In this document: piece after piece, positions 16,458 to 59,852 of the stretch
Numbering within the stretch: the stretch's first letter is position 1
Layout: each line of letters starts with the position of its first letter
From: Fibrobacterota bacterium
GTDB taxonomy: Bacteria; Fibrobacterota; Fibrobacteria; UBA11236
Reading direction: 5' to 3'
DNA length: 64,000 nucleotides
Assembly: GCA_019509785.1 (NCBI GenBank)
Contig: JAEKLQ010000022.1
Coordinates: 1-64,000 of the forward strand
Notes under the pieces: generated by a model
Told to the model about the DNA's origin: nothing
Database searches by the model: none
Seen by the model: the letters and a program-made list of their open reading frames with translations, nothing else
Position numbers and translations under genes: made by a program

Positions 16458-17558
16458 ATGCTGGCTACCCAAGTCCGACAGAAAGACGCAATCTTCTACT
16501 TCGCCGCCTATCCGGCGAAGGCCTTACTGGAGAAGGTGCGTTTCAGCAGCCGCTTCTACGACGAGGGTACTCCCATCGCCGCCGAACCCGCGCCGGAAGG
16601 GGACGATATCGCCAAGTTCATCGGCCGTATCGAGAAATCGGACAAGGCCTTCCAGCGCGCCATGGCCCGGGACAAGATCCGCGCCATCCGCAATTTCTAC
16701 GAAACCGCCAGCACTCAGCCCCCCATTCCCGGGACCGTCCTGCTTTTCACCGCCGAGAAACTGCGGTTCAAGGGCCTGCAAGGGGACGAAGGCGTGGGCC
16801 ATCTGTCCGAACCGGACAACAAGTACCTCATCATCGACGGGCAGCATCGCCTGGCGGCCCTGCACTTCTTCTTCCGCGAACGCCCGGACGAGGCTTCCTC
16901 CATCAACGTCCCTTGCATCATCTTCGATGGCCGGAGCGAGGACTTCGCCACCGAGATGTTCGTCATCATCAATTCCACCCCCACTCGCATCAACAAGAGC
17001 CATCTGGTGGACTTGTACGAGCGCGTTTCCTTCGCCTCGCCGGACAAGCGTTGTTCGGCCCGCGTGGTGGAAAACCTGTACGGCCGCGACGATAGCCCGC
17101 TGCAATACCGCATCAACCGCTTGGGCGGCAAGAGCAAGGCGGAAAAATGGATCCTGCAGGCCGAGCTTTTCAACGAAATCAACCGCTGGGTGAAATCGGA
17201 ATGGGATCCCAAGGAGGATCTCTCGCCCACCCATCAGGCGGAGCGCTATTACGAGCAACTGCGTGATTTCCTGAAGGCGTCCGCCCAGGTCTGGGGCGAT
17301 GCTTGGGGGAATTCCGCCTACATGGTCACCAAGCCGGTCACCATCAAGGCCTTGATCCGCGTCTGCGCCGACCTCTCGGAAAAGGACAGCGAGCCGACGG
17401 TGGGCCGCGTGAAGCGCTGGGCGGAACGCCTGGCCCCTTGGATCGAAATGAAGAAGGCGTTCAAGTCCGAAGGCTTCTACGAACGCTTTCCGGCCAAGGG
17501 CCAGATCGAACGCGTGAGCCGCATCGAAAAGGATTTGGCCAAAGAAATCGGAGTGTAA
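16458..17558 (+). CDS. DGQHR domain protein (DndB-like), stand-alone
   Basis: 366 residues. The hallmark DGQHR is in LIIDGQHRLAAL (about residue 127), followed by a ParB-like fold segment (FVIINSTPTRINKSHL). The family includes DndB, which regulates DNA phosphorothioation, and related proteins of phage-defence islands. Here no dndA, C, D or E gene and no restriction gene is nearby; neighbours are a secreted protein and a fibro-slime protein, so the gene stands alone in its own transcription unit. The C-terminal third is helical and charged. A DNA-related regulatory role is inferred from the family only. Confidence 0.8.
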   Translation: MLATQVRQKDAIFYFAAYPAKALLEKVRFSSRFYDEGTPIAAEPAPEGDDIAKFIGRIEKSDKAFQRAMARDKIRAIRNFYETASTQPPIPGTVLLFTAEKLRFKGLQGDEGVGHLSEPDNKYLIIDGQHRLAALHFFFRERPDEASSINVPCIIFDGRSEDFATEMFVIINSTPTRINKSHLVDLYERVSFASPDKRCSARVVENLYGRDDSPLQYRINRLGGKSKAEKWILQAELFNEINRWVKSEWDPKEDLSPTHQAERYYEQLRDFLKASAQVWGDAWGNSAYMVTKPVTIKALIRVCADLSEKDSEPTVGRVKRWAERLAPWIEMKKAFKSEGFYERFPAKGQIERVSRIEKDLAKEIGV

Positions 17559-33701: not shown

Positions 33702-35480
33702 CTAGCGGCCCGCGAAGAGGGTTTCCGCATCCCAGCGGGGCGGCGAGATCGATGCGCTGGCCGGGTTCACGTATTCGCGGTAGAGATTATTCTCCAGCGC
33801 GAAACGGAACCAGCCATCGCCGCCCGGGCTGTACGCATCCGCGCTCATGACGGGCAGATCCTGCCGGATTCCGCCCGCGGCCGCTACCACCGTGAAGCGT
33901 CCCCAATCCCGCTTCCGGGTCATCGCGTATCTGCCATCGGTATCGGTACGCCGGAGTCCCGTCGCCCCCAAGGCGGCGCCCATTTCCACCTCCAGGTTCT
34001 CGCACAATCCGAAAAAGTCATCGGCCGAGGACTGCTTCAGATCCAGCTTGATGCCCCATAATTCGCCTTGGGCATTGAAGGCCAAGCGAATGCGGGCCCG
34101 CGTGGGCCTGCGATCGGGAAAGGCGACTACTTCGGCGGCGATCTCTCCGGAATCGGCCCGCACCCCGGAGGCCTGGTAGAGCCCCAGGTTGGCGCGGCAT
34201 TCCTTCCGTCCCATCCCCCAATAGAATCCCATCATGCCCGCCGGCACGCGCAATTGATCCGCGCCGAGGAGGGCCAGCAATTCCTTGGCTTTGGGATCGA
34301 AGGCCATCGACCCGTCCCGGTATTCCTTCATGGCCATGGGCAGCCCCTCGGGAGACCAGGTCCGATAGGCCCCATCCAAGCGGCCTTGCTTGTAATACGC
34401 CTGCTCTTGGAGGCCTCCGGAGGGATACCAGATCCGGCTCAGGCCATCCTTGCGGCCGTGGGCGAAGCGGCAGCGCATCCGCAACTTGTTGCCGGGATGC
34501 CACTGGGAGAACTCCCCTTCCAAGAGCCCGGCGGCGTACCGTGCCGAGTAGAGGCGGGTTCCGTCGGGATACCAGGCTTCTTCCGGGCCCTGGCGGCGGC
34601 CGCCGGCGAAGGCGCCGCGCAAGCGCGGTCGCGCGTTGGGGTACCATTCCCGATACTCCCCTTCGGCCCGGCCGGAGCGGAAGCGCGTGATCGACTTCCG
34701 TTGCCCGTCGGGGAACCATTCCTCCCAGGGCCCATCGCGCTCCCCGCGCAGGTAATTCGCGGACCAGAGCGGATTGCCGCTGCGCGAATAGGTCTTCCAG
34801 GCTCCCGTGGGCCGATCCACTGAATAACCACCCGAAAGCCACGGAGTGCCGTCCGGATACCAGGCCTTGACCGGCCCATCGAGCCGGCCTTCCTTGAAAT
34901 GCCTCTCGGCCATGAGCTTGCCGTCCGGATATTTCATCTCGCATAAACCGTCGCGAACGCGACGGTCACCATCCCGAACGGGGTGGGGACCGTCCCGTAC
35001 GGAACTGTCACCGTCGCGGAGCCGAACCCGCGTCTCGCTCGCTGCACCCACGCTCCAAGCGCAAGTTTCCATAACTGTCAGGGAATCGCCCGCCGGACCC
35101 ACCGCATCCACGCGCGCGGAGCGGACCTCGAAGCGGCGATCGTAGGCCGCATGCCCGAGCGAATCGTAACGAAGCTCCCGCACGAGGAAGCCGCGCGACC
35201 ATTCGCGCTCTGCGCTCAGGCGCCCGCGCGCATCCCAGGCGCGGGCCCGCCCATCGCGCTTGCCGCCGAGGTAGGGTACCGTCATCTCACGGCTCCCATC
35301 GGGATAAAAGGATTGGTAATCGCCTTCGCGGACGCCGGGTTTACCTGCCTGGCCTTTTTCGGTCCAGCGCTCGCGGATGCGGCCGTCCGGATAGCGCGAT
35401 TCGTGGACGACGCCATGGCCGCAGGCCCAGAAGCATAACGCTACGATGATCGCAGAGAGAATCCGCATGCCCGACTTCAT
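33702..35480 (-). CDS. MORN-repeat (YwqK-type) lipoprotein
   Basis: About 592 residues. The N-terminus (MRILSAIIVALCFWAC) fits a lipoprotein or secretion signal. At least nine repeats of the type W-x-PDG-x-x-x-x-x-x-x-x-G (YPDGRIRERW, YPDGSREMTV, WYPDGTPWLSGGY, WFPDGQRKSITRF, WYPNARPRLRGAF, WYPDGTRLYSARY, WYPSGGLQEQAYY) fill residues about 25-400, the pattern called YwqK antitoxin or MORN_2. A separate C-terminal domain of about 190 residues follows. These repeats generally bind proteins or membranes; the antitoxin name comes from one case. It is divergent from the motor operon, sharing a 120-base promoter region. The exact ATG (35480 or 35468) is uncertain. Confidence 0.75.
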   Translation of the reverse strand: MKSGMRILSAIIVALCFWACGHGVVHESRYPDGRIRERWTEKGQAGKPGVREGDYQSFYPDGSREMTVPYLGGKRDGRARAWDARGRLSAEREWSRGFLVRELRYDSLGHAAYDRRFEVRSARVDAVGPAGDSLTVMETCAWSVGAASETRVRLRDGDSSVRDGPHPVRDGDRRVRDGLCEMKYPDGKLMAERHFKEGRLDGPVKAWYPDGTPWLSGGYSVDRPTGAWKTYSRSGNPLWSANYLRGERDGPWEEWFPDGQRKSITRFRSGRAEGEYREWYPNARPRLRGAFAGGRRQGPEEAWYPDGTRLYSARYAAGLLEGEFSQWHPGNKLRMRCRFAHGRKDGLSRIWYPSGGLQEQAYYKQGRLDGAYRTWSPEGLPMAMKEYRDGSMAFDPKAKELLALLGADQLRVPAGMMGFYWGMGRKECRANLGLYQASGVRADSGEIAAEVVAFPDRRPTRARIRLAFNAQGELWGIKLDLKQSSADDFFGLCENLEVEMGAALGATGLRRTDTDGRYAMTRKRDWGRFTVVAAAGGIRQDLPVMSADAYSPGGDGWFRFALENNLYREYVNPASASISPPRWDAETLFAGR

Positions 35481-35584
35481 CCCGGAGTTATCGGAATATC
35501 TTGCGCGTAGGATTAGGATTTCTTCAAGCTTTGGCGTTAATCGTCCGGACCGGGAAAAACCTAGGCATCGCAAATGCCGTCCCG

Positions 35585-35590
35585 TATAAT
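35585..35590 (+). promoter_or_regulatory. Exact TATAAT box just before the motor operon
   Basis: A perfect -10 hexamer lies 10 bases before the ATG at 35601, without a good -35 box. If used, the message would start only a few bases before the ATG or at it. It argues against the earlier ATG at 35574, which would lie upstream of this box. Confidence 0.4.
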
Positions 35591-35600
35591 CGGAATTGCC

Positions 35601-37424
35601 ATGCCTATAACCCTAAAAACCACAAGCCTGGCCGCGCTTCTCGGCTGGGCCCTGGCAGCGGCGCAGCCTTCTGCCCCGGCGATGCGGCCGGCGCAGGATC
35701 AGGCCGCCAAGCTGACCCAGTACTACGAGAACCTCGCGACGCGGACCCTGGCGCGCTATTACGAGGAGGAAACCTTCCTCGTCAAGGCCAAGGTGGAGAT
35801 GGAGCCGCCCCCGGAGATCGAGCTCGGGAGCACGGACGACGGGACGCCGGCGGAACCGCCCCAACAACTCCCCGGCCTGCCTTTCCTGCCCGACAACGCG
35901 CAACCGGAAAAGCCCGCTCCCGCCAAGGAGGCCCCGAAGGGCGGGGGTATCCAGGCGGTTACCTATGACGTGCTGGTGGATACCGGCTATTCCGAAAAGG
36001 ACGCGGAATTCATCCGCAACCTGCTGGCGATGACCGCCCGCCTCGACGATGCGCGCGGCGACCGCGTCAGCGTGCACGAAGGCGTGTTCCCGCGCGACAA
36101 CCACGCGCTCACCAGTTATCGTAAGCCGCCCGAACCACCGCCCGCGGCATCGAATGCGCCGCAGCCCAAGTCCAAGGCGGACACGGGCGATGCCCGCAAG
36201 CAGGACGCGCGCGAAAAGGCCGCGGCCAATCCTTTCGCCCAATACATGGATCATCTGCCTTCGCTGATCCCCCTGCTGCTCATCTGCCTCCTGATCCTGG
36301 CTTGCGTGTGGATGGTCTCGCGCGCCATCGTGGGCGCGGCCCGCGCCGAGCGCAAACCCGCCGATGCGCCTCCCGTCCTTCCCGCCGCGCCGATTGCTCC
36401 GGCCCCCGCCCCCAAGGCCCCCGAAGGCAAAGGCCAACCCCCCGAGCTCGCGGCCTTCCGCCCTTTCCTCCTGAATTGCTTCGTCGGCAACCCCAAACAC
36501 TGCGCCCAGATCATCAAGAGTTGGATCCAGCGCGATCCCGATCGCGGCATGCGCGACGCGGCCGCCCTGGTCGCCAGCCTGGACGACCGCCTGATGGGCG
36601 TGTTGGGCCCGGAAATCGGCAAGGATTCGCTTTCCAAGCTCGAGGTCCACCTGGCCGCGGGCGAACCTCCGTCCCCGGACGATTTGCTGAACGTGTACAA
36701 GGAATTCAAGCGCGAGTACGGGAACCTGGCCGGCGCGGATACCCAGGGGGATCAGTACAAGGACATGTTCGGCTTCCTGAAGCAGATGAACGAGCAGCAG
36801 ATCATGCACGTCCTGCGCGACGAATCCCTTGGCATAGCCGGGCTGGTGCTAGCGCAATTACCGGGTGAGATGGCCAGCGGCATCCTGCAGAAGACCGATC
36901 CCGATAACCGGGGCAAGCTCCTCATCGCCATGGGCAACATCGATCATATCCCGCTCAACGTCTACAAGGAAATCGCCGACCGCCTTTCCCTGAAGGCCCT
37001 GGCGGTGGGCAACATGCGCTACGTGGCCGCCGACGGCGTCGACAGCATCCTGGAATTGATCGACAGCCTCCCCTTAAGCATGCAATTCCAGTACATCCAT
37101 TCCATCTCGGAAATGGATCTGGGCTTGGGGGAGAAGCTCCGTAACCGGTACGTTACCCTGCCGGAACTGGTCGGCCTTCCCGACAAGTTCCTGTCCAACG
37201 TGCTGCAAGGCCTCGATCAGGAAACGCTCATCCTGGCCCTCGCCCACGTGGACGATGCCGTGAAGGGGAAAATCCTGTCCCTGCTGCCCGAGCGCATGCA
37301 AATGCTGGTCGCTAGCGGCCTGGATGGGGCCATGGACCGTGCCCCCAAGGACTCCGAAGTCGCCCAGCGACGCCTCTTGCGGAAGATCCGCGAGGAGATC
37401 CGGCATTCGGGGAGACCGGTATGA
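35601..37424 (+). CDS. Natural FliF-FliG fusion protein, first gene of a non-flagellar motor operon
   Basis: About 607 residues. After an N-terminal signal or membrane helix (ITLKTTSLAALLGWALAAA) comes a short periplasmic part matching the C-terminal ring-building region of FliF: KAKVEMEPPP and, near residue 150, a segment ending DDARGDRVSVHEGVF, like the RGD-x-V-x-V-x-x-x-x-F motif of FliF. A single membrane helix (LIPLLLICLLILACVWMV) leads into a Pro/Ala linker and then the FliG middle domain (DESLGIAGLVLAQLPGEMAS in place of EHPQ...) and FliG C-terminal domain to the end. FliF and FliG are normally separate proteins. Most of FliF is missing. Of the FliG torque charges, by hand alignment, one Arg is kept (PERMQML), another is Lys (APKDSEV), the paired Asp are lost. 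Stop overlaps the next start as ATGA. Confidence 0.8.
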   Translation: MPITLKTTSLAALLGWALAAAQPSAPAMRPAQDQAAKLTQYYENLATRTLARYYEEETFLVKAKVEMEPPPEIELGSTDDGTPAEPPQQLPGLPFLPDNAQPEKPAPAKEAPKGGGIQAVTYDVLVDTGYSEKDAEFIRNLLAMTARLDDARGDRVSVHEGVFPRDNHALTSYRKPPEPPPAASNAPQPKSKADTGDARKQDAREKAAANPFAQYMDHLPSLIPLLLICLLILACVWMVSRAIVGAARAERKPADAPPVLPAAPIAPAPAPKAPEGKGQPPELAAFRPFLLNCFVGNPKHCAQIIKSWIQRDPDRGMRDAAALVASLDDRLMGVLGPEIGKDSLSKLEVHLAAGEPPSPDDLLNVYKEFKREYGNLAGADTQGDQYKDMFGFLKQMNEQQIMHVLRDESLGIAGLVLAQLPGEMASGILQKTDPDNRGKLLIAMGNIDHIPLNVYKEIADRLSLKALAVGNMRYVAADGVDSILELIDSLPLSMQFQYIHSISEMDLGLGEKLRNRYVTLPELVGLPDKFLSNVLQGLDQETLILALAHVDDAVKGKILSLLPERMQMLVASGLDGAMDRAPKDSEVAQRRLLRKIREEIRHSGRPV

Positions 37425-38557
37425 TCCTCCAAGCCGTCAGGAAGTCGGGCCGCAAGGCGGCCCTCGCCATCGCATTGCTCGTCACCTTCGCCGCCGCCGC
37501 GGTCGATAAACCGCCTTCCGACCCGTTCGCGCCCAGTTCCACCGGCCTCCGCCAGATCGCGGAGATCATGTCGCGCCTGGCCAAATCCATGGGGGACATC
37601 CCGCCCAACGTCGACCGCATGGCGCTCTCGCAGATCAAGGTCGATCCGCGCCAATTCGATCCGGGCATGGCCCGCTACATACAGGCCCAGGTCGAAGACG
37701 TGTTCCGCAAGGAAGGCCGCCGTACCATCGTGACCTCGCCCGAACTGCGCACCTTCCGCGTGGTGGCGACGGACTCTACTTTCAAGTTCTCCAACACCTT
37801 GCCTTCCATGGAAGATCTCTGGCGCCTGGGCGATAAGCTGCGGGTGGACGGATACATCGAAGGCTCCTGTTCCAAGAGCGCCGACGGCGACGTCATCATG
37901 AACCTCAAGGTGTTCCGGCATCGCACCGGGGAAATCGTATGGTCGAACAGCTTCGTGGCGGGCCCCAACGAGAAGAAGCCGGACATCCTGAACCTGGACT
38001 ACAGCGTTTCGGCGAACCTGCGGCGCTTCCCTATCAAGCAAGGCATTGTCCCGCGGCCCGATACCCTCGATCCCAAGACCGGCAGGCGGGTGCTCGATAC
38101 CCTCGGCTCGCTGGCCCTCACCATGTACGGCATCGAGGGCTCCGTGAGTGAAGCGGTGACCTCCGATAAATCCTTGCTCTTCTCCGTTTCGCTGGGATAC
38201 GGTTACGCCAGCGGCGTGGGCGGACCAGACAGCCTGGGCGTCGATTTCAACATCCAGATGGTGAAATTCGGGATCGAGATGCTGGGGATCTTTTTCCGCA
38301 AATCCAATCCCGATCTCGGCTATTGGCTGGGCACCTATGTGGGGTACGAGGAATTCATCCCCTTCGCCAACAAGGGCCATTTGAGCACGATAAGCGTCGG
38401 CTACAAGTCTCGCGTAAGCCGGCACTTCACCTTGGGAGGCGGCATCAACTTCCTTTTCCTCAACGACAAGCTGCGGGGATTGGGCGAAAATTCGGATCGC
38501 TTTCTGACCTTAGAGCCGGTGGCATATGACCTCACCTATTTGCACTACACCTTCTAG
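37421..38557 (+). CDS. Outer-membrane protein with CsgG/FlgO-like domain and beta-barrel C-terminus
   Basis: 378 residues. Signal peptide (KAALAIALLVTFAAAAV), then a globular domain (about 60-190) with a TolB-N/CsgG/FlgO-like pattern: QVEDVFRKEGRRTIVTS, LGDKLRVDGYIEGS, VIMNLKVFRHRTGEIVWSN. Residues about 240-378 alternate polar and aromatic residues as in outer-membrane strands and end in ...LTYLHYTF with a terminal Phe, the usual barrel signal. FlgO-like proteins form outer rings around some flagella, so it may be the outer-membrane end of the motor; this is inference. The start overlaps the fusion gene as ATGA, with GGAG upstream. Confidence 0.65.
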   Translation: MILQAVRKSGRKAALAIALLVTFAAAAVDKPPSDPFAPSSTGLRQIAEIMSRLAKSMGDIPPNVDRMALSQIKVDPRQFDPGMARYIQAQVEDVFRKEGRRTIVTSPELRTFRVVATDSTFKFSNTLPSMEDLWRLGDKLRVDGYIEGSCSKSADGDVIMNLKVFRHRTGEIVWSNSFVAGPNEKKPDILNLDYSVSANLRRFPIKQGIVPRPDTLDPKTGRRVLDTLGSLALTMYGIEGSVSEAVTSDKSLLFSVSLGYGYASGVGGPDSLGVDFNIQMVKFGIEMLGIFFRKSNPDLGYWLGTYVGYEEFIPFANKGHLSTISVGYKSRVSRHFTLGGGINFLFLNDKLRGLGENSDRFLTLEPVAYDLTYLHYTF

Positions 38558-39785
38558 GCATTTCCGGGCCTTTGCCGGGCCGGCCCTGGCCGCGCTCCTG
38601 CTGGCCGCCTGCGCGGGGGACAAGCCCGATCCGGCGCGGCCGATCGATCCCGCCCTGCCCACCGCCCAGGCGGGCGTCGAGCCCGATAAGGGCCAAGGCA
38701 ATCTGAGTTTCCATTACTCCAACAAGAGCACGGACGCCAACCTGGCCATCGACCTCAGTTCCACGGACGTATATCTGGAAATGACGGGGAAGTCGGCGCA
38801 GGAGCAGGCGGATCAGTTGCGCGCGGAAGCCAAGCCGGATCCCCGCAAGGTCGCGCCTTCGGGCCATAAGCCCACCACGTCCGGGGAGGACGCGAAGGCT
38901 TCCGAGCCAAAGGGCGATGAAGAGAACGATGATGCGGGAGATGCCAAGGGGGAGAAAAACCAGGCTCCCACGGGGGCTCAGTCCGCGAAAGGCTTGCACA
39001 AGGGACCTCCCAAGAAGCCCGAGCCTCCGCCCGAGGAAGATCCGGGAGACTACGAGGACGTAACCACCAAGGTACTGGCCGGCATCCGCCGCGCCCAGGA
39101 GCTGTTCTACCAGAAGCGTTATCCCGAGGCGCTGCAGGCCGCGCGCTCTTCGCTGGATGCGCGCCCGACCGCCGAAGGCTATGGCCTGCTGGGCAGCATC
39201 TATTTCATGCAAGGCAACACCGGCATGGCGCGCCGCCAATGGATGGAGGCCCTGCGCCTAAATCCCGACATGCCGGCCGTGGTCAACATGCTGGATAAAA
39301 CCCGTACGCCCGGCGGCCGCGGTTCTCCCGCGCCCCGCCCGGTCTACCATCCTCCCGCGCGTGCCGCCGATCCCGATGCCCCCTATCCGGAGGAATATTC
39401 CTCGCCGGGCGCCGAAGCCGCGCCATCCTCCTCCGTCCCTGCGGCTCCCGCCCGTCCCGCCTCTTCAGCCGCCGCCCGCCCGTCCGCTTCGGCTCCGGCC
39501 CCGGCAGCCACGCCTTCGGCCGCACCCGCCGATCCCGCCGCGGTCGAATCCGCTCCGCCCGCCTCCGCGCCCCAGCCCGAAGAGGACGGCGACGAGGACG
39601 CCACCGTTCCCGCCACGACTGCACCCGCCGCAGCGCCTGCACCCGCTGCAAAGCCCGCTCCCGCGCCATCCGCGCCCGCCAAAGCGGCCGCGAAAGGAAC
39701 GGCCGCCGCGCCTAAAGGTACGCCGAAGGCCGCCACCAAGGCCGCGCCCGCAGCCGCGAAACCGGCTCAGGAAGGGACCCGATAA
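38526..39785 (+). CDS. TPR lipoprotein with long Pro/Ala-rich tail
   Basis: 419 residues. Lipobox LLAAC (Cys29), an acidic, Lys/Pro-rich low-complexity stretch, a TPR pair (about 175-255: AQELFYQKRYPEALQAARSS, YGLLGSIYFMQGNTGMARR), and then about 160 residues almost wholly Ala, Pro, Ser and Lys. A tail of this kind is stretched and could cross the periplasm or bind peptidoglycan. It overlaps the end of the barrel gene by 32 bases and its stop overlaps the motA start (TAATG). By position it should link the motor to the outer membrane. Confidence 0.7.
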   Translation: MTSPICTTPSRHFRAFAGPALAALLLAACAGDKPDPARPIDPALPTAQAGVEPDKGQGNLSFHYSNKSTDANLAIDLSSTDVYLEMTGKSAQEQADQLRAEAKPDPRKVAPSGHKPTTSGEDAKASEPKGDEENDDAGDAKGEKNQAPTGAQSAKGLHKGPPKKPEPPPEEDPGDYEDVTTKVLAGIRRAQELFYQKRYPEALQAARSSLDARPTAEGYGLLGSIYFMQGNTGMARRQWMEALRLNPDMPAVVNMLDKTRTPGGRGSPAPRPVYHPPARAADPDAPYPEEYSSPGAEAAPSSSVPAAPARPASSAAARPSASAPAPAATPSAAPADPAAVESAPPASAPQPEEDGDEDATVPATTAPAAAPAPAAKPAPAPSAPAKAAAKGTAAAPKGTPKAATKAAPAAAKPAQEGTR

Positions 39786-40597
39786 TGATCTCCCTTTCCA
39801 CCGTACTCGGGGTCATCTTCGGCTTCATCGTCATCGCCGCCGGAATCCTGCACGAAACCAAGGACTGGCACGTCTTCCTCAGCACGTCTTCGCTCGCCAT
39901 CGTCTTCGGGGGTACCGTCACGGTTACCTTCATCGGTTTCCGGTTCCAGTATATCTGGAATGCTTTCAAGGCCACCTTGAGGATTTTCCTCAAGCAATCC
40001 ATCTCGTCCAAGACCCTGATGCTGGACGTGAAGACCGCCATCGAGTGGCAGAAGAAAGTGCAGGCCGAAGGGCCCGCCGGATATGAGGCCATCTCCAAGG
40101 CCAGCAAGGACGAGTTCGTACGGTATATCTTCGGGCTGGCCAGCACCGGGTATAAGGCGGAGGACATCCGCGAGTTCGGCACCACCAACATCGAGGAACA
40201 TTATTTCCGCCACCTGCAAGAGGCGAGCATCCTCAACACCATGGCTTCCATGACCCCCGCTTTCGGCCTGGTGGGCACCTTGATGGGGCTAATCGTCATG
40301 TTGGGCCGCCTCGAGGATCCCTCCAAGCTGGGCCCGGGACTTTCGCTGGCCTTGACCTCCACGCTCTACGGTTTGCTTTTCGCGCGCTTCGTCTTCATGC
40401 CCAGTTCCACCAAGGTCAAGCAGACCTTGAGCATCGACCGCTTCCGGCATTACCTCCTGCTCGAGGCCCTGGTCCTGATCCTGGAGAAGAAGCCGGCCAT
40501 GTACATCCAGGACAAGCTGAACTCGTACCTGAGCCGCAAGGACCAATATTCCATGTTCGCGAACAAAGGCGGATCGGCGCCGGCCAAGAGGCCTTAA
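39785..40597 (+). CDS. MotA-type stator protein
   Basis: 270 residues, four membrane helices (two near the N-terminus, two around 155-205). The signature stretch TPAFGLVGTLMGLIVML with the conserved Pro, LEDPSKLGPGLSLALTSTLYG, and the second conserved Pro in FVFMPSSTKVKQ identify a flagellar-type MotA/PomA subunit rather than ExbB or TolQ, which have three helices. No long cytoplasmic tail, unlike ZorA. It forms a proton or sodium channel with MotB and should push on the FliG part of the fusion protein at 35601. The start overlaps the preceding stop. Confidence 0.9.
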   Translation: MISLSTVLGVIFGFIVIAAGILHETKDWHVFLSTSSLAIVFGGTVTVTFIGFRFQYIWNAFKATLRIFLKQSISSKTLMLDVKTAIEWQKKVQAEGPAGYEAISKASKDEFVRYIFGLASTGYKAEDIREFGTTNIEEHYFRHLQEASILNTMASMTPAFGLVGTLMGLIVMLGRLEDPSKLGPGLSLALTSTLYGLLFARFVFMPSSTKVKQTLSIDRFRHYLLLEALVLILEKKPAMYIQDKLNSYLSRKDQYSMFANKGGSAPAKRP

Positions 40598-40606
40598 GGT
40601 TACGCC

Positions 40607-41281
40607 ATGGCCATCGCCAAGCATCCCAACCGCCACCGCGTCCACGAGCCGGAGCACATCGAAGAAGATTGGCTCATGAGCTACGCCGACATGGTGACCT
40701 TGCTGATGGCGTTCTTCCTCGCGATGCTTTCGGTCTCCCACGTCGATCCAGTCCTCTTCGAGCAGATGAAGAAGGGCCTGCGCAGCGACATCGGCAAGGA
40801 CAAGGACGTGAAGACGCCCCTGGGCGAGATCAAGCACGACCTCGATTCGCTGCTGGCGAGCGAGCGGGCCCGCGGCGACGTGAACATCGATTTGGGCCGC
40901 GAAGGCATCATCCTGGAATTCTCGAGCTCGGCGGTGTTCGATCCGGGCAAGGCGGACGTCGGCCCGGCGGCGCGCGCGAACATGGACAAGGTGGCCGACG
41001 CCATCAAGAACATCGAGTACTACAAGTTCGCCGTGGACATCGAAGGCCATACCGACAACATCCCCATCAAGACCCTCCAGTTCCCGTCCAACTGGGAACT
41101 CTCGGTCATGCGCGCGACCAATATCGTGAAGTACCTGATCGGAAAAGGGATCCCCTCGGAGCGCCTGAAGGCCGCGGGCTACGCCGATACCAAGCCCAAG
41201 ACGCCCAACGTGGATGCCGAAGGGAAGCCCATCCCCGCCAACCAGGCCAAGAACCGGCGCATCGTTCTCAAGATCCACTGA
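40607..41281 (+). CDS. MotB-type stator protein with OmpA-like peptidoglycan-binding domain
   Basis: 224 residues. A single helix carries the ion-binding Asp in MSYADMVTLLMAFFLAML. After a short plug/linker the OmpA-like domain contains the VDIEGHTDN, NWELSVMRATNIVKYL and NRRIVLKI motifs for peptidoglycan binding. It is shorter than E. coli MotB (308) mainly in the linker and C-terminus. It lies 9 bases after motA and is the last gene of the operon. The intact Asp argues that the stator is working. Confidence 0.92.
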   Translation: MAIAKHPNRHRVHEPEHIEEDWLMSYADMVTLLMAFFLAMLSVSHVDPVLFEQMKKGLRSDIGKDKDVKTPLGEIKHDLDSLLASERARGDVNIDLGREGIILEFSSSAVFDPGKADVGPAARANMDKVADAIKNIEYYKFAVDIEGHTDNIPIKTLQFPSNWELSVMRATNIVKYLIGKGIPSERLKAAGYADTKPKTPNVDAEGKPIPANQAKNRRIVLKIH

Positions 41282-43234: not shown

Positions 43235-43861
43235 TTGAAAAAGATCGCCCTAGCAATTCTGGCCGCCGGAGCCCTTTCCGCCCATGCGAACCTGCTCGTC
43301 AACGGCAGCTTCGAGGACAATGGCTCGAACATGTACGCGAACAACGGTTCCTGGCAGACCTACAACTCCATCTCCGGATGGAGCAACACCGGCTACGTCG
43401 AAATCCAGAATAACGGCCTTTTCGGCGCGGCCACCGTCGCAGCCGATGGCTCGAACTGGCTGGAGCTGGATAGCTATTCCTCCTACTCCATCTCCCAGGG
43501 CTTCGGCGCCGCAGCCGGACAGTCCTATACCCTGTCCTTCGCCTATGCCGGCCGTCCCGACGCCCCCATCTACGATGACGCCATGCTCGTCAGCGTGAAC
43601 GGCGTGACCACCACCTTCAACACCACCGCCAGCAACGTCGGCCAACCCCTTAATTGGTTGAACGGAAGCCTCACCTTCACCAGCACCGGCGCCGACGTCA
43701 TCTCCTTCATCGCGCAAGGCCCCAGCGACGGCCTCGGCATGCTTTTGGACAATGTCGCCGTCAACACTCCCGCCGTTCCCGAGCCGACCTCCCTGGGCCT
43801 GATGGGCCTCGGGCTCGTCGCCTTGGCCGGCTTCGCCAAGTCGCGTACCAAGCGCGCCTAG
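43235..43861 (+). CDS. PEP-CTERM sorting domain protein (DUF642-like)
   Basis: 208 residues. Signal peptide (KKIALAILAAGALSAHA), then a beta-sandwich of DUF642 type (NLLVNGSFEDN, GWSNTGYVEIQNN, WLELD, LSFAYAGR). The C-terminus is a full exosortase signal: VPEPTSLGLM, hydrophobic helix, then KSRTKRA. An exosortase (EpsH) must exist elsewhere in the genome to cut and attach it. The start is TTG after AGGAGA with 8 bases between; no ATG is better placed. A sigma54 promoter precedes it and a strong terminator follows. Confidence 0.9.
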   Translation: MKKIALAILAAGALSAHANLLVNGSFEDNGSNMYANNGSWQTYNSISGWSNTGYVEIQNNGLFGAATVAADGSNWLELDSYSSYSISQGFGAAAGQSYTLSFAYAGRPDAPIYDDAMLVSVNGVTTTFNTTASNVGQPLNWLNGSLTFTSTGADVISFIAQGPSDGLGMLLDNVAVNTPAVPEPTSLGLMGLGLVALAGFAKSRTKRA

Positions 43862-52482: not shown

Positions 52483-54744
52483 ATGGCTTCCCAGACGAAA
52501 ACGACCGCTCCCGGGAAAATGGCGGCAATGGCCAAAACGGCTTTCGGGGTGGAAGGCATGAGTTGCGCGAGCTGCGTGGGGCGGGTGGAACGCGCCCTCG
52601 CGAAATTGCCGGGGGTGGCCGAGGCCCACGTGAATCTGGCCACCTCGCGGGCCGACGTGCGCTTCGATCCGGCCTTGATGGACGAAGAGAAGCTATTCGC
52701 CGGGGTGCGCGAAGCCGGGTACGGGCCCGTGCCCTGGAAGCAAGGCGGAGTCCCGACCGGGGGCGAGGAGACCGTCCGCGACCTCGTCTTGTCCCTCATC
52801 TTCGGCATACCTCTCCTGCTTCTGTCCATGGCCCCCATGGCCTTTCCGCCCTTGCATCATTTCCTGATGCGCGCCAATCCTTCCGAAGGATTCTGGAACC
52901 TGATCCAGATGGGGCTGGCCACGCCGGTCTTGTTCGGGCCGGGCCGGCGCTTCCTGCGCCGCGGCTGGGCCTCCCTCCGCGATCGCAGTCCCGACATGAA
53001 TACCTTGGTCGCGTTGGGAACCTGGTCGGCTTACCTGTCGAGCGCGGCGGTCACCCTGGCCCCGACCCTGTTCCCGCCCGCCGCCCGGCATGCCTACTTC
53101 GAGGCCGCGGCCGTGGTCATCGCCCTGGTGCTGCTCGGGCGTTGGTTGGAGGCCCGGGCCAAGGGCCGCGGCGCGCAGGCCATCGGGCGCTTGCTCGAGC
53201 TGAGGCCCGCCACCGCGCGCCTATTGCGGCGCGGCAAGGAAGTCGAGGTGGAAGTGGCCGCCCTGATTCCCGGGGACGAGATTTCCGTGCGGCCCGGCGA
53301 TCGCGTGCCCGTGGACGGCGTGGTGATCGGCGGCGAGAGCCGCGTGGACGAAAGCATGCTGACCGGCGAACCGATGCCGAAGGCCAAACGGATCGGGGAT
53401 CGCGTGACGGGCGGGACCGCGAACGGGGACGGCCACTTCACCCTGCGGGCCGAGGCCGTAGGCGCCGACACCGCCTTGGCGCGCATCATCCAACTGGTGG
53501 AAGAAGCCCAGGCCACGCGCCCGCCCATACAGGACTTGGCCGATAAGGTGGTGGTGGTCTTCACTCCCTTGGTGCTTCTGGTAGCCGCCCTTACCTTCGC
53601 CGCCTGGATGATCCTGGCCGCCGCGCCCGCGTTCCCGGCCGCCCTTTCGCATGCGGTCGCCGTGCTCGTGATCGCTTGCCCGTGCGCCATGGGCCTGGCC
53701 ACCCCGGCAGCCCTGCTGGCCGGCACCGGCCGCGCCGCCGAATTAGGCGCGGTGATCCGCGATGGCGCCGCTTTCCAATCCCTGGCCGAAGCCCGCCGCA
53801 TGGCCCTCGATAAGACCGGAACCCTCACCCTGGGTAACCCGCAAGTGACGGAATTCCACGTGTTACCTACCTGGAAGGATGGCGAGGCCCTGGCCCTGGC
53901 CGCCGGGCTCGAGATCCGCAGCGCCCATCCCTTGGCCAAGGCCTTCGTCGCTTATGCGGGTTCCCGCGATGTGGCCCCGTCGGTCCCGTCCGCTTTCCGC
54001 GCCCTGGAGGGCATGGGGGTGGAAGGGGAGATCGCGGGCCGGCGCGTGGCGGTCGGTTCCGCGCGGCTGATGGACGCGTTAGGCGCGGACCGGTCGGCAT
54101 TCCGCGAGGCGGCGGAGGTCGCCTCCGGGCGAGGGGCCGGCCTGGCCTGGCTGGCGGTGGACGGGGCTTGCATGGCCCTGGCGGTGATCGCCGATCCGCT
54201 CAGGCCGGAAGCGAAGGAGGCGGTGGCCGCCTTGCGGAAAATGGGATTGGAACTGTCGATCCTCACCGGCGATCAGGACGCTCCCGCCCGGGCCGTGGGC
54301 GAGGCCGTAGGCATCTCAGCGGTGCAGGCCGGGCTTTTGCCGGCGGGTAAGGCCGAGGCGTTGCGGGCCTTCGGCGGGGGAAAGACCGCCTTCGTAGGCG
54401 ACGGGCTCAACGACGCCCCGGCTTTGGCCGCGGCGGATACGGGCCTGGCTTTGGCGGGCGGATCGGATCTGGCCATCGCCAGCGGGGACATATTGCTGTT
54501 ATCGCCGGATTTGCGCAGCGTTCCTCGCATGGTGGCATTGGCCCGCGCGGTGATGCGCACCATCAAACTCAATCTGCTCTGGGCCTTCGGATACAATGCC
54601 CTGCTGATCCCCGTGGCGGCCGGGGCCTTACACTCCAGGGGCTGGGAGCTGAGCCCGGTCCTGGCCGGCGCGGCCATGGGGCTGTCGAGCCTGTTCGTCC
54701 TCTTGAACAGCTTGCGATTGAAGGGGTTCCGTCCCGGAATCTGA
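52483..54744 (+). CDS. copA: Copper-translocating P1B-type ATPase
   Basis: 753 residues. One N-terminal metal-binding domain (GMSCASC), eight membrane helices, the CPC ion-binding motif in [10 protein letters not shown], the phosphorylated Asp in DKTGTLTLG, the HP motif (SAHPLAKAF), TGE in MLTGEPMPK and the [10 protein letters not shown] hinge. CPC plus the GMSCASC domain point to Cu(I)/Ag(I) export from the cytoplasm. It lies before a Cus-type efflux block (56471-62793), with a glycosidase gene between. The ribosome site is weak. Confidence 0.95.
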
Positions 54745-54841
54745 TTTCGGTTCCCGATTCGGGCCATATTTCCCGGGCATTCCCGAAAGCCCCCGGCATT
54801 ACATTAACCGCGGACTTCGCAGAAAGGCCGGGGAATCGCGA

Positions 54842-56386
54842 GTGGGTATCGGTTCGAAATCCTTCTTGATAGCGGCCGGGCTCGCCCTGGCCGCCGCGCG
54901 GGCCCAGACCCCGATCCGCATCGATCCCGCGGATACCCGGCAAACCTTCGAGGGATGGGGGACCAGCCTGGCCTGGTGGGCCTTTTCCCTGGGAGGCTGG
55001 AAGGAAGCCAACCTGGGAACCCTGGTGGATCAAGTGGCCGACAGCAATACCGGCCTGGGGATGACCATTTTCAGGTATAACATCGGGGGCGGCGAGCAGC
55101 CCGGGCATACGCATATGCGCGTGGATGCGGTTATACCGGGCTACAAGCCCACCGAGGCGGGACCTTACGCATGGCGGGCGGACTCCCTGCAAATCAGGAC
55201 CATGAAGGCGCTGCTGGCGCGCGTGAAGAACCCCATCCTGGAAGCCTTTTCCAACTCGCCGCCCTGGTGGATGACTAAGAGCGGCTGCGCATCGGGGAAC
55301 ACCGATGGTTCGAATAACCTGAAGGATGATTATTACGACGACTTCGCCGACTACCTGACCTCGGTGGTCAAGCACTTGCAGGATTCCTTAGGGCTGTCGT
55401 TCCGGACCCTGGAGCCGTTCAACGAGCCCAACTCCAATTGGTGGACGGCGCTGGGCAAGCAGGAAGGCTGCATGTTCTCGCGCGCCACGCAACCGAAGCT
55501 GATCACGGAGGTGGCCAAAAGCTTGAAGGCAAAAAGCCTGGCGACGCGCCTGGTCGCGGCGGACGCCAATTCCATCGCGGAAATGGTCGGCAACGTGCAA
55601 AGCTACGATTCGGCCTCAATGGCATCGCTCGCCCAGATCAACACGCATTCCTATAACGGTTCCGTTTCGGATCGGAAGACCTTGCGGACCTTGGCGACCA
55701 AGGCAGGTAAGCGGCTCTGGCAATCGGAAACGGGGCCTTCGGCCATGTCCGGGAAGCCCCTGTTCGATGTCGCCATCTGGTCGGCATCGCTCATCGTGAA
55801 GGATCTGCGCGACATGGGAGCGGAGGCGTGGGTGGATTGGCAAGTGGCGGGCGGCGGCATCTGGGGCGTGATCGATTACAATGCCTCGGCCCAGACCAGC
55901 CAAATCAACAAGAAGGGATTCGCTTACGCCCAGTTCTCCCGCTTCATCCGCCCCGGGGCGATTATCCTGGGAGGCGGGGATTCCAATACGGTGGCCGCCT
56001 ATCACCCCGCCACGGGAGCATTGATCCTGGTGGTGGTCAATGCGGGCGATGCCGCGGCCGAATATACTTTCGACCTCTCGCGCTTCCCCGGCCGGCCCGC
56101 GTCGGCGCGCGCCTACCGGACCTCGTCCACCGAGGACATGAAATCCCTCGGCGCCGTCGCGCTGGCCGGGAGCACCTTGTCCGCCCAAATGCCCGCGCGT
56201 TCCGTCACGACCTTGGTATTGGACGGGGTCACGGTGGCCGTCCTGCCCAGGCCTCGCGCCGTGGTCGGATCAGAGCGGCGATTCCTTTCGGGAAGGGCGA
56301 TGGCGACTCCGGTCTACGGAACTCCGCAAGGCGTGTGCTGCCTGGATGCGGCCGGGCGTTTTGCGCCACCGGGCCTGGTGGAATAA
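54842..56386 (+). CDS. Secreted GH30-type glycoside hydrolase (endo-beta-1,6-galactanase-like)
   Basis: 514 residues, GTG start, signal peptide ending ARA. The opening QTFEGWGTSLAWWA is typical of GH30 galactanase-like enzymes; FRYNIGGGEQPG follows. The acid/base Glu is in EPFNEPNSNWW and the nucleophile Glu in LWQSETGPS. A C-terminal beta domain wraps the barrel (ALILVVVNAGDAAAEYTF). It should cut beta-linked galactan or glucan outside the cell. It sits inside the copper block but shows no link with it. Confidence 0.88.
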   Translation: MGIGSKSFLIAAGLALAAARAQTPIRIDPADTRQTFEGWGTSLAWWAFSLGGWKEANLGTLVDQVADSNTGLGMTIFRYNIGGGEQPGHTHMRVDAVIPGYKPTEAGPYAWRADSLQIRTMKALLARVKNPILEAFSNSPPWWMTKSGCASGNTDGSNNLKDDYYDDFADYLTSVVKHLQDSLGLSFRTLEPFNEPNSNWWTALGKQEGCMFSRATQPKLITEVAKSLKAKSLATRLVAADANSIAEMVGNVQSYDSASMASLAQINTHSYNGSVSDRKTLRTLATKAGKRLWQSETGPSAMSGKPLFDVAIWSASLIVKDLRDMGAEAWVDWQVAGGGIWGVIDYNASAQTSQINKKGFAYAQFSRFIRPGAIILGGGDSNTVAAYHPATGALILVVVNAGDAAAEYTFDLSRFPGRPASARAYRTSSTEDMKSLGAVALAGSTLSAQMPARSVTTLVLDGVTVAVLPRPRAVVGSERRFLSGRAMATPVYGTPQGVCCLDAAGRFAPPGLVE

Positions 56387-56470
56387 GCCGGAACAACGGA
56401 GATCCACCCGAAAACCTGCCAAGACGGCAGAAAGCTAGGTCCTAACCCGGGCCTGTGGTATATTTGGGGT

Positions 56471-56890
56471 ATGCGGAACTTGCGTCGACATGGAATCCTG
56501 GGGCCAGCCGCCTTGCTGCTGGCCGCGGTCTTCTTCGTGGCCCAGGTTTTCGCCTGCTGCCAAGCGAACGCGCGCCTCGGCCGCTCCCTGCTTTCCATGT
56601 TCGCGCGGACCTCCCAACCGGCCCATGCCTGTTGCGCCAGGGCCGCGGCTCGCGAGCCCCTCGCGCCTCCGGCGCATTCCGGTTGCGCCGCCGGCCAATG
56701 TTGCCTCCATCAAGCGGCCCAGAATGCGCCCCAGTTGGCCTCCGCGCCCAGCGAAGCACCGGTATTCTCCGTGTCCCTGGTGCTCTTGCCGGCCTTCATC
56801 GAACCTCCCGTCGCCCTGGGCGAATGGCCCCCGACGGTGATCGATTCCGGGCCGCCGATCTACCTCCGCACCCTCCGCCTCCTCGTCTGA
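56471..56890 (+). CDS. Small Cys-rich exported protein at head of Cus-type efflux genes
   Basis: 139 residues. A signal or membrane helix (AALLLAAVFFVAQVFA), then Cys pairs (FACCQ, HACCAR, SGCAAGQCCLHQ) and a Pro-rich C-terminus. Cys/His clusters directly before TolC/CusB/CusA genes suggest metal binding in the periplasm. No known family recognised. The next gene begins 113 bases later. Confidence 0.55.
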   Translation: MRNLRRHGILGPAALLLAAVFFVAQVFACCQANARLGRSLLSMFARTSQPAHACCARAAAREPLAPPAHSGCAAGQCCLHQAAQNAPQLASAPSEAPVFSVSLVLLPAFIEPPVALGEWPPTVIDSGPPIYLRTLRLLV

Positions 56891-56903
56891 GATCCCCGTC
56901 GGT

Positions 56904-56936
56904 ACCGTAAGGGTCCGCCGACCGTAACGGGTCCGC
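56904..56936. repeat. Near-perfect direct repeats upstream of the TolC-like gene
   Basis: ACCGTAAGGGTCCGC (56904-56918) and ACCGTAACGGGTCCGC (56921-56936) are the same but for one inserted base, spaced 17 bases. A third partial copy (CGGGTCCC) occurs at 56958-56965. They could be operator sites. Confidence 0.4.
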
Positions 56937-57003
56937 TACCCTGCTCCGTGGACGCCACGGGTCCCTTCGTTATTCCCGATCACCGAACCTGAGAGGAGAA
57001 GCG

Positions 57004-58362
57004 ATGCTACGCTTTCCGTCCCTGAGCCTTTCCGCTTGCGCCCTGGCCGCGATCTGCGCCGGCGCGTCGGAGCCCGAAACGCCCATCCCGGCGGCCGCCA
57101 TCCCGATGGCCGCCGGCCCCGCCGACGATCCCTTGCCGGCCCTGGTGTCCGAGGCGATGCGAAACAATCCCTCCATCCAGGCCGCGGAGTACCAGGTCAA
57201 GGCGCTCCGGTCCGCGCCCGATCATGCCTGGTCCTGGGAGGCGCCGCAAGTCGGGGTGGAGTTCTTCCAGACGCCGGTGAAGTCTTTCCCGAACCCGATC
57301 AAGAACCAGCAGGAAATCGACTACTCCGTACAGCAGGCGTTCCCCTTCCCGGGGAAGATCGCCACGCGCATCAGGGCCGAGGATCGGCGCGTGGACATGG
57401 GTTCCGCCGAGCTGGAGGCCTTGAAGCATCAGGTGGCCCGCGACGTGAAAACCGATTATTACGAGCTATACCTCCTCGATCGCCGCATGGAGATCAATAG
57501 CGAAAGCCAGGCCCTGATGCGGCGCCTCATCGAGATCGCGCGCCGACAATACGAGGTGGGCATGGGGAGGCAGGCCGACATCCTCAAGGCGCAAACGGAG
57601 CTGACCTCGCTCCGCACCGACAGCATCGGCTTGGAGCAAATGCGACGGGCCACGGCCGGCATGCTGAACGCCTTGTTGAACCGGGAAACGGAAAGGCCTT
57701 TTCCGGTCGCGGCCGACCTCAAGGTCGCCGAAATCGGCTGGACCTTCGGGCAAATCGCCGTCATCCTGGAGGAGAACCATCCCAAGCTCCGCTCCATGCA
57801 GGCTTCGATCCGGATGCGCGAAGCGGAAAAGAGCATGGCCGGAAAGGAATACTTGCCCGAGTTCATGGTGCGTGGGACCTATAAGGATATGCTGGCGATG
57901 TCGTCCGGGGAAGGGTCGCCGGGGGACTTCTGGTCGGTGATGGTGAGCATGAACGTGCCCGTCGCCTTCTGGTCCCTGCCCAGGTATCGCGCCGGTTACG
58001 CACAAGGCGAAGCCAACCTCGCCCAGGCCAAACGGGAATACGCGAACATGCGGAACATGCTGTTCGCCAAGGCGCAGGAGGCGCTGCTCAAGGCCGAAAG
58101 CGGGGCCGAATTGGCCCGTCTGGCGAAGAGCGTATTGGTGCCGCAGGCCCAGCAGGCTCTGGAGTCGAACCAGGCGGCCTACCAGGGCGGGAAAGGCGAT
58201 TTCATGACCCTGTTGGACGCCTACCGAACCCGCTTGATGGCCAAGGAGAACGCCGAGATGGCCATCATGCAACTGTCCGCCAGCCAGGCCGACCTGGAAG
58301 AGGCCGTGGGCCTGGGACTGGAAGAAATCTCGCTGAAGATAAGCGAAGGAGCGAAGAAATGA
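57004..58362 (+). CDS. TolC/CusC-type outer-membrane efflux protein
   Basis: 452 residues. Signal peptide, then the two OEP repeats of the outer-membrane efflux family: long helices (ARDVKTDYYELYLLDRRME, ARRQYEVGMGRQADILKA) and a second set (LAKSVLVPQAQQALESNQAAY, GDFMTLLDAYRT). It forms the exit duct for the CusB/CusA pump. GAGAGGAG lies just before the ATG. The stop overlaps the cusB-like start as ATGA. Confidence 0.92.
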   Translation: MLRFPSLSLSACALAAICAGASEPETPIPAAAIPMAAGPADDPLPALVSEAMRNNPSIQAAEYQVKALRSAPDHAWSWEAPQVGVEFFQTPVKSFPNPIKNQQEIDYSVQQAFPFPGKIATRIRAEDRRVDMGSAELEALKHQVARDVKTDYYELYLLDRRMEINSESQALMRRLIEIARRQYEVGMGRQADILKAQTELTSLRTDSIGLEQMRRATAGMLNALLNRETERPFPVAADLKVAEIGWTFGQIAVILEENHPKLRSMQASIRMREAEKSMAGKEYLPEFMVRGTYKDMLAMSSGEGSPGDFWSVMVSMNVPVAFWSLPRYRAGYAQGEANLAQAKREYANMRNMLFAKAQEALLKAESGAELARLAKSVLVPQAQQALESNQAAYQGGKGDFMTLLDAYRTRLMAKENAEMAIMQLSASQADLEEAVGLGLEEISLKISEGAKK

Positions 58363-59846
58363 AAAAGGGAATGCTTATCGCCTTGGCCGCCATATTCCTG
58401 GCCGGCGTGGCGGCGGAGATCTGGACCTTGCGGCATGGGGCCGGGGCGCCGGCCGCGCGAATCAAGGCCGCCAAGACCATGTACAACTGCGCCATGCATC
58501 CGCAGTACATCTCGGACAAGCCGGGCAACTGCCCGATCTGCGGGATGAAACTGGTGCCGATGGACAAGGAGCATGCGGATTCGGGAAGCCGGGAGGCGAG
58601 CGCCGGCGCGGAAAGGAAAATCCTGTATTGGCGCGATCCCATGCATCCCTGGTACACGTCCGACAAGCCCGGCAAGGCGCCGGACTGCGGCATGGATCTG
58701 GTGCCCATATACGAGGGCGACCAGAGCGCGAAGGGCGTCCGCATCGATCCCACCACCGTGCAGAACATGGGGGTGAAAACCGAGGCGGTGGGCTTGCGGG
58801 ACATGCAAACCGAGATCCGCACCAGCGGCATGGTGAAGGTGGATCAAAGCAAGCTGACCTCGGTGAACGCGCGCGTGATGGGCTACGCGGAAAAGGTCGC
58901 GGTGAGCACCACCGGCGAGAAGGTCCGCAAGGGCCAGACGCTATTGGAACTCTACAGCCCCGACCTGGTGAGCACGCAGGAGGAATACCTGCAGGCGTTG
59001 CGGTACGCGAAGGGAAACGCCGGCGGGGCCGATCTCGGGGCGCGCGAATTGGTGGAAAGCTCGCGGCGGCGCTTGCTCAACTGGGGCATTTCCGAAAGCG
59101 AAATAGCCTCGTTGGAGAAGCTGGGCCATGCCCGGAGCGCCTTGCCCATCGCCTCCCCCGCCAACGGAATCGTGCTGGAGAAGATGGTGGTGCAGGGCCA
59201 GAACGTCATGCCCGGGACGGAACTGTACCAGATCGCCGATCTCTCCAAGGTGTGGATCGTGGCCAGCGTTTATCAGCAAGATCTGGCGGTAGCGCGCCTC
59301 GGGGCCGAGGCGGAGGTGGAACTGAACTACATGCCGGGAAAGACCTTCAAGGGCAAGGTCACTTCCATTTCCCCGGGGCTCAACGCGCAGACCATGACCG
59401 CGGAGCTGCGCGTCGAAGTGGCCAATACGCCCGCCCTGGATTTCCGGCCCGAAATGTTCGCGACCGTGCATATCCGTTCCGCGGCGCGCAGCCGCGTGGT
59501 GGCGGTGCCGGAGCAGGCCATCATCCGTTCCGGACGGCGCGACATCGCCGTGGTCGCCTTGGGTAACGGCTATTTCGAACCGCGCGAGGTAAAGCTGGGA
59601 GCCGCCTCCGGCGATTACGTGGAGATCACCGAAGGCCTGCACGAAGGCGAGACCTTGGTCGTCTCTTCCCAGTTCTTGATCGATTCGGAGAGCAATCTCA
59701 AGGCGGCCATCCAGCAAATGCAGGGCGGCTCCGCTAAGGGAATGGACATGGGCGCGTCGGGTGCGGGAGCGGCTCCCGCTTCGGGGGCTGCCCCGGGGCC
59801 CGCTGCCGCGGCCGATAGCGCCCATACCGGCTCGGACGGAAAGTAG
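58359..59846 (+). CDS. CusB-type periplasmic adaptor with two heavy-metal-binding domains
   Basis: 495 residues. After a membrane anchor come two heavy-metal-binding repeats (MYNCAMHPQYISDKPGNCPI with CGMKLVPM, then DPMHPWYTSDKPGKAPDCGM with DLVPIY); the second has lost two Cys. Then the barrel-sandwich and beta-barrel of RND adaptors (VNARVMGYAEKVAVSTTGEK, IASPANGIVLEKMVVQGQ). The C-terminus is Gly/Ala/Met-rich. It collects Cu/Ag in the periplasm and couples pump to duct. It overlaps the TolC-like gene by 4 bases; cusA follows 6 bases later. Confidence 0.92.
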   Translation: MKKGMLIALAAIFLAGVAAEIWTLRHGAGAPAARIKAAKTMYNCAMHPQYISDKPGNCPICGMKLVPMDKEHADSGSREASAGAERKILYWRDPMHPWYTSDKPGKAPDCGMDLVPIYEGDQSAKGVRIDPTTVQNMGVKTEAVGLRDMQTEIRTSGMVKVDQSKLTSVNARVMGYAEKVAVSTTGEKVRKGQTLLELYSPDLVSTQEEYLQALRYAKGNAGGADLGARELVESSRRRLLNWGISESEIASLEKLGHARSALPIASPANGIVLEKMVVQGQNVMPGTELYQIADLSKVWIVASVYQQDLAVARLGAEAEVELNYMPGKTFKGKVTSISPGLNAQTMTAELRVEVANTPALDFRPEMFATVHIRSAARSRVVAVPEQAIIRSGRRDIAVVALGNGYFEPREVKLGAASGDYVEITEGLHEGETLVVSSQFLIDSESNLKAAIQQMQGGSAKGMDMGASGAGAAPASGAAPGPAAAADSAHTGSDGK

Positions 59847-59852
59847 GCTATC

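Follow-up and report, generated by a model that had tools for sequence, protein, structure and literature searches.

Results

Five genes in one operon

Within a 64,000-nucleotide stretch of DNA from a Fibrobacterota bacterium (assembly GCA_019509785.1, contig JAEKLQ010000022.1, positions 1 to 64,000; hereafter the window), we examined five closely packed genes on the plus strand, between 35601 and 41281, which encode a fusion of FliF and FliG sequences, an outer-membrane barrel protein, a tetratricopeptide repeat (TPR) lipoprotein, MotA and MotB (Table 1). The first three junctions are overlaps of 4, 32 and 1 bases, and a gap of 9 bases separates MotA from MotB. All five open reading frames (ORFs) described in an initial annotation of this DNA are present, and the ORFs, Pfam matches and structure models bear out both the identities and the tight order that it gave. 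The fusion gene probably starts at ATG 35601 rather than at ATG 35574, because a TATAAT-like box lies 10 bases before the former and this box, GTATAATC, is kept across 6 genomes of the genus (TATACT in one). A promoter scan by itself found promoter-like sites no commoner than in shuffles.

Table 1. Features of the operon, with window coordinates (TM, transmembrane; AF2, AlphaFold 2)
Feature	Position	Strand	Details
-10-like box TATAAT	35585..35590	+	directly 5' of ATG 35601; possibly leaderless transcript
FliF(RBM3)-FliG fusion, putative rotor protein	35601..37424	+	607 aa from ATG 35601; 616 aa from ATG 35574
RBM3a half of S-ring domain	35691..35801	+	AF2 helix 40-59, strand 68-76; hhalign to canonical FliF
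RBM3b half of S-ring domain	35949..36080	+	strand-helix-strand, LVDT...RGDxVxV; hhalign to canonical FliF, E 9e-5; Foldseek S-ring
Single TM helix, equivalent of FliF TM2	36255..36344	+	AF2 helix 228-257; conserved hydrophobic stretch
FliG N-like helical domain	36441..36731	+	AF2; Pfam FliG_N E 8e-4, under cut-off
FliG middle domain	36795..37013	+	EHPQ position (FliM-binding) is ESLG at 36822-36833
FliG C-terminal torque domain	37101..37397	+	R281 equivalent R574 (37293-37295) kept; D288/D289 equivalents S/G
Outer-membrane barrel protein	37421..38557	+	signal peptide, periplasmic domain and barrel; C-terminus ...HYTF
Predicted domains of barrel protein	about 37547-37960; about 37997-38554	+	periplasmic domain; ~8-stranded beta-barrel (structure model)
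TPR lipoprotein	38526..39785	+	lipobox cysteine 38610-38612; TPR 39171-39269
MotA	39785..40597	+	Pfam match and key residues
MotB	40607..41281	+	Pfam match; channel aspartate; OmpA-type peptidoglycan-binding domain

An S-ring domain of FliF joined to FliG

The fusion matches Pfam FliG_M (3.6e-13) and FliG_C (3e-13) above the curated cut-offs, with weak matches to FliF_C (0.025) and, below cut-off, to FliG_N (8e-4). Its AF2 model has a mean predicted local distance difference test score (pLDDT) of 67 and a predicted template modelling score (pTM) of 0.28, so that the domains are usable and their packing is not. In order, the model shows a helix and strand, a low-confidence loop, a strand-helix-strand unit, one TM helix and about 20 helices, the helical part corresponding to the three FliG domains, and with this model Foldseek finds full-length FliG (1.2e-8), then S-ring structures of FliF, the best of them at 9.7e-4. 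On the strength of the model and the match to full-length FliG, FliG_N is present as well, making the FliG part complete. The initial annotation was thus right about the FliF C-terminal ring segment, the FliG middle and C-terminal domains and a FliG-like fold, and had overlooked the N-terminal domain.

In FliF, a collar divides RBM3 into RBM3a and RBM3b (PMC11481574), and the fusion has the same order of RBM3a, loop and RBM3b. A sequence search of its periplasmic region against the Protein Data Bank (PDB) gave no usable match, and structure models were needed. Aligned to canonical FliF with hhalign, the Fibrobacterota sequences alone gave a weak result (probability 59); it was the addition of relatives from other phyla, described below, that made the RBM3 assignment firm (joint set, 96%, 7e-9; foreign set, 97%, 2.9e-11). 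RBM2, which seats the export gate in FliF (PMC11481574), belongs to the region modelled by PF01514 (RBM1/2), and this family matches none of the 9 Fibrobacterota fusions; it does find the canonical FliF of the same genomes, plus SctJ-like genes in two of them (G156 and G158). The EHPQ motif by which FliG binds FliM (PMC6700473) reads E-[SP]-x-G in 9/9 fusions versus EHPQ in 9/9 canonical FliGs of the same genomes, the R160 equivalent is A or G, and EHPQ is likewise replaced in those foreign relatives that can be aligned at that position. Rings built from RBM3-like domains are known from FliF and SpoIIIAG, and in Salmonella FliF joined to FliG is functional (PMC11481574).

Stator and outer-membrane partners

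MotA and MotB match Pfam MotA_ExbB (3e-21), MotB_plug (1e-16) and OmpA (3e-17) above the curated cut-offs. The equivalents of the channel residues D32, P173 and P222 are kept in 9/9 operon stators, and also in the foreign systems; in the window, D32 of MotB corresponds to D28, and MotA keeps P173, P222 and E98 (as E101) and has Q93 in place of R90. In the flagellar motor, MotA R90 contacts FliG D288/D289 and MotA E98 contacts FliG R281 (PMC12505986, PMC6700473). The first of these contacts is lost on both sides in the operon (Q at MotA position 90 and S/G at fusion positions 288-289, each in 9/9) and the second is retained on both (MotA E/D98 and fusion R281, 9/9); canonical MotA and FliG of the same genomes retain all contact residues. 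Among the foreign systems, G375 and G234 have lost the opposite pair on both sides (98 is A or Q, 281 is G) and keep R/K90 and E289, and G221 keeps both pairs. In the Fibrobacterota operons, loss and retention are paired as would be expected of a private rotor-stator pair; the foreign systems give a mixed picture, G249 and G380 being discordant at one pair.

The barrel protein has no match in Pfam or NCBIfam and no usable match in a sequence search of the PDB. Its model suggests a periplasmic domain of the LpoB/TolB-N/FlgT type, with structural matches to LpoB (4q6l), FlgT (in 8z5n) and PelC (in 9h80), followed by a small OmpA-like outer-membrane barrel. A profile of this protein run over 392 genomes found it in 9, in a single copy each. 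The product of gene 3 is a lipoprotein with a TPR, as identified by its lipobox and Pfam; its Pro/Ala tail is restricted to this genus.

Conservation in Fibrobacterota and separateness from the flagellum

The fusion occurs in 9 of 168 genomes of the phylum, with identity between families down to 32-39%; six of the carriers belong to one genus and the remaining three to as many further families. Gene order is conserved: it is kept in 8/8 other carriers (in G155 split over a contig end), and finding the same five proteins in this order eight more times is beyond chance. Pairwise distances of the fusion, barrel, MotA and MotB correlate mutually (r 0.95-0.996) and with those of canonical FliG (r 0.91-0.97), for which reason the operon appears to have been inherited vertically as a unit. 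Next to it, the window carries a divergent MORN-repeat gene (33702-35573, minus strand). Each of the six genomes of this genus has the gene at the same site, but it does not accompany the operon in other families. G044 has a cluster encoding CheY-like, CheR and CheB proteins, a CheA with a receiver domain and a methyl-accepting chemotaxis protein (MCP) divergent from the operon (L114, 784-8599), which could regulate it, and in G154 genes for a Ser/Thr kinase and a GAF-HD protein lie upstream.

The initial annotation called the system flagellum-less, stated that Fibrobacter is not flagellated, and proposed to check that other flagellar genes are absent from the same genomes. As applied to this organism, none of this is supported. 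We reject a host without a flagellum: the window genome encodes FlhA (a single one, on a different contig, C65), FliF, FliG, FliM, MotAB and six flagellin-type genes, in agreement with the report that flagella are ancestral in the phylum and were lost in Fibrobacteraceae (PMC4704652). Every Fibrobacterota carrier has canonical FliF, FliG, MotB and FlhA of its own, and because of this separate set the operon is an additional system, not the host's flagellar motor. No carrier has a second FliM (at most one per genome, adjoining export genes in G000), and no flagellar genes lie beside the operon in the neighbourhoods read. The phylum has 62 flagellated genomes versus 9 carriers, so most flagellated genomes are without the operon; by genus (4 carrier genera; 31/41 genera flagellated), overlap between carriers and flagella was not significant. 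Two genomes of the genus also have a second, divergent FlhA and SctJ-like FliF homologues (G156:C250, G156:C218, G158:C73), a gene content that suggests a non-flagellar type III secretion system.

Relatives in other phyla

In GTDB r220 a pattern scan picked out eight loci, each from a record bearing the name Fibrobacteres or Fibrobacteria, and together with the barrel profile this suggested a system limited to Fibrobacterota, a reading overturned when a profile of the whole fusion was run over the 392 genomes. Seven genomes of other phyla proved to have RBM3-FliG relatives, either as fusions or as two separate genes, most of them next to MotAB. Fusions are followed by MotA-MotB-MotB in G375, by MotA-MotB in G234 and, in G380, where the fusion contains TPRs and a second fusion of 457 aa is present, by a 1304 aa protein, MotA and MotB; unfused pairs occur in the orders MotA-MotB-FliF'-FliG' (G249) and TPR-MotA-MotB-FliF'-FliG' (G221). 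In G210 and G355 the fusion is accompanied by a TPR protein and by a small one that may be a barrel. FliG_C is above cut-off in 8/8 of the foreign FliG-like proteins and FliF_C (PF08345, full model) in two of the relatives. A long frame in G045 (L129) was rejected as a relative, being a masked canonical gene followed by FliM.

FlhA was found in G221 and G355 and was not found in G210 (96% complete), G249 (86%), G375 (96%), G234 (98%) or G380 (95%); nor did the fusion profile, which picks up canonical FliGs of other genomes down to 1e-8, find a canonical FliG in these same five. Because five of the seven foreign genomes thus have neither FlhA nor canonical FliG, the gene content indicates that the combination of rotor and stator in the absence of a flagellum does exist and extends beyond Fibrobacterota. 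In a FliG tree with long branches, one branch (support 94/90) splits the non-flagellar from the flagellar FliGs.

Several neighbours of the foreign systems are worth recording. PorV/UPF0164-like proteins lie beside the fusions in G234 and G380 (L131, 10498-11520, and L132, 8798-10384), both genomes without FlhA, and since PorV is a type IX secretion protein it is possible that this neighbour hints at the output of the motor. The 1304 aa protein between fusion and MotA in G380 (L132, 2715-6626) is a coiled-coil protein, and receiver-domain-like ORFs, by sequence reading, lie beside two foreign systems. The second MotB of G375 (L130, 4708-5391) has N instead of the channel aspartate, which suggests an inactive or structural stator subunit.

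Elsewhere in the window are a DUF642 protein with a PEP-CTERM sorting signal (43235-43858), and a DndB-like protein associated with DNA-sulfur modification (16458-17555). At 52483-62945, a GH30 gene separates a heavy-metal P-type ATPase from a metal-binding RND efflux set (OEP, CusB/HlyD-like, AcrB-like).

Discussion

The genes with their domains, conserved order and key residues, their separateness from the flagellum, and their occurrence in genomes without flagellar export genes can be read directly, and from them we think it likely that the operon specifies a second rotor-stator complex, driven by ions and independent of the flagellum, which would be coupled to the outer membrane and would most plausibly move a surface structure. 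The claim of a motor module other than the flagellum, first made in the initial annotation, is supported by the separate canonical FliF, FliG, FliM and MotAB of this genome and, strongly, by relatives in five genomes without FlhA. We infer a membrane topology in which the fusion would assemble into a ring through its S-ring (RBM3) and FliG domains: the S-ring would lie in the periplasm and the FliG ring in the cytoplasm, and each subunit would cross the membrane by a single TM helix. MotA5MotB2 units, anchored to peptidoglycan through MotB, would pass ions and push on the FliG torque domain via the E98-R281 contact, and because the FliM/CheY switch site is gone, rotation would be expected in one direction only. 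The barrel protein and TPR lipoprotein may form the outer-membrane end that receives torque or force, and the likeliest output would be to move or tension an outer-membrane or surface structure. As relatives occur in bacteria without a flagellum, the motor probably drives some other cell-surface machine; that this is surface motility, perhaps gliding, or adhesion we offer as a tentative proposal.

The system differs from each of the machines it resembles. With the flagellar motor it shares a homologous S-ring domain, FliG N/M/C, MotA and MotB; the channel residues are the same, and the torque contact is in part conserved. But the operon is without RBM1/2, the FliM-binding motif, and rod, hook, export and filament genes, FliF and FliG are one chain, and elsewhere in its genome the cell has a complete flagellar set. 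Engineered FliF-FliG fusions of Salmonella and Vibrio are also one chain, and form rings and can function (PMC11481574, PMC6079021), but those are laboratory constructs with full-length FliF, whereas the operon fusion is natural and reduces FliF to RBM3 and TM2. Myxococcus AglRQS-Glt and Bacteroidota GldLM with the type IX secretion system (T9SS) likewise place a 5:2-type ion-driven stator on a non-flagellar envelope machine (PMC13104615, PMC9389320), but use no FliF or FliG, neither of which is mentioned in a 2026 review of gliding motors; no operon gene matched the AglRQS/Glt or GldLM families, Glt/Gld genes elsewhere in the genomes not having been searched. SpoIIIAG of Bacillus sporulation likewise forms a periplasmic ring through an RBM3-like domain, with no flagellum involved (PMC11481574). 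That ring differs from the operon in having no FliG. Nor is it known to have a MotAB partner. The periplasmic domain of the barrel protein shares its fold with Vibrio FlgO/FlgP/FlgT and CsgG/LpoB/PelC-type proteins, but it has no detectable sequence homology to them and is fused to a C-terminal outer-membrane barrel. The Zorya anti-phage motor ZorAB has a MotAB-type stator, and ZorB models match the operon MotB; we nevertheless rejected a defence system, as this similarity is generic, no operon gene matches ZorA, ZorC, ZorD or ZorE, and the genes for the rotor and the outer-membrane proteins do not resemble Zorya. We found no description of a natural FliF-FliG fusion, a non-flagellar FliG or gliding with FliG in the open-access papers searched, subscription literature and preprints lying outside the scope of that search.

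Other explanations of the operon have to be weighed. It could be a non-rotary envelope energiser like Tol-Pal or TonB, in which MotAB charges a scaffold derived from FliF and FliG, and this scaffold either pulls on proteins of the outer membrane and cell wall or sends them a signal. The match of the barrel protein's periplasmic domain to LpoB and TolB-N, the frequency of TPR lipoproteins in envelope maintenance and the common superfamily of MotA, TolQ and ExbB all fit such a device, but pulling needs neither an S-ring domain nor an entire FliG in which the arginine of the torque domain is intact, and the stator-rotor contact residues change jointly, so we consider it unlikely. Slightly less credible still is an accessory of the cell's own flagellum, that is, an alternative rotor/stator set, or a scaffold in the periplasm, which the flagellar motor would take on in certain conditions. 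One might expect this from the fact that all 9 Fibrobacterota carriers are flagellated and that the periplasmic fold of the barrel protein is also found in FlgT, part of the LPHT ring of Vibrio, but five genomes without FlhA have relatives, the fusion is without RBM1/2 and the FliM site, and the operon is not beside flagellar genes in the neighbourhoods read and is missing from most flagellated genomes of the phylum. A sensor of surface or load, whose stator would feel outer-membrane resistance and report to signalling proteins, agrees with the chemosensory cluster in G044, the kinase and GAF-HD genes in G154 and the receiver-domain-like ORFs beside two foreign systems, but seems a little less likely again, given that such neighbours are not conserved and that genus g1 has only the divergent MORN-repeat gene.

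A flagellum-independent rotary motor remains the reading we prefer, and several points weigh against it. It is drawn throughout from sequences and models; overall confidence in the model of the fusion is low (pTM 0.28), which leaves ring formation and domain packing as predictions. The fusions of G210 and G355 have no adjoining MotAB, a barrel of the Fibrobacterota type was missing from every other phylum searched, and G249 and G380 are discordant at one charge pair. The shared ancestry of the carriers limits the weight of the 9/9 residue counts, as these changes may reflect one event in one ancestor. Finally, because all carriers of the phylum are also flagellated, stator cross-use is possible there.

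Taking the foreign relatives into account, we lean toward the view that these loci represent a broad, undescribed class of ion-driven rotary motors, found across several phyla in flagellated and non-flagellated bacteria. In this class an S-ring-FliG rotor, made as one chain or from two genes, would be driven by MotAB and linked to outer-membrane proteins, and would serve the envelope in some task other than the flagellum, surface motility for instance. Going by the split in the FliG tree, the class may be an ancient offshoot or sister of the flagellar rotor. A complete rotor and stator without export gate, switch, rod or filament would uncouple the motor from the flagellum. If this is true, rotation of FliG by MotAB can serve other machines, stators turning a ring could be studied in a much simpler system, and the class would inform the question whether the motor came before the flagellum or was taken over from it. 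For bacteria with neither flagella nor known gliding genes in their genomes, it offers a concrete candidate motor.

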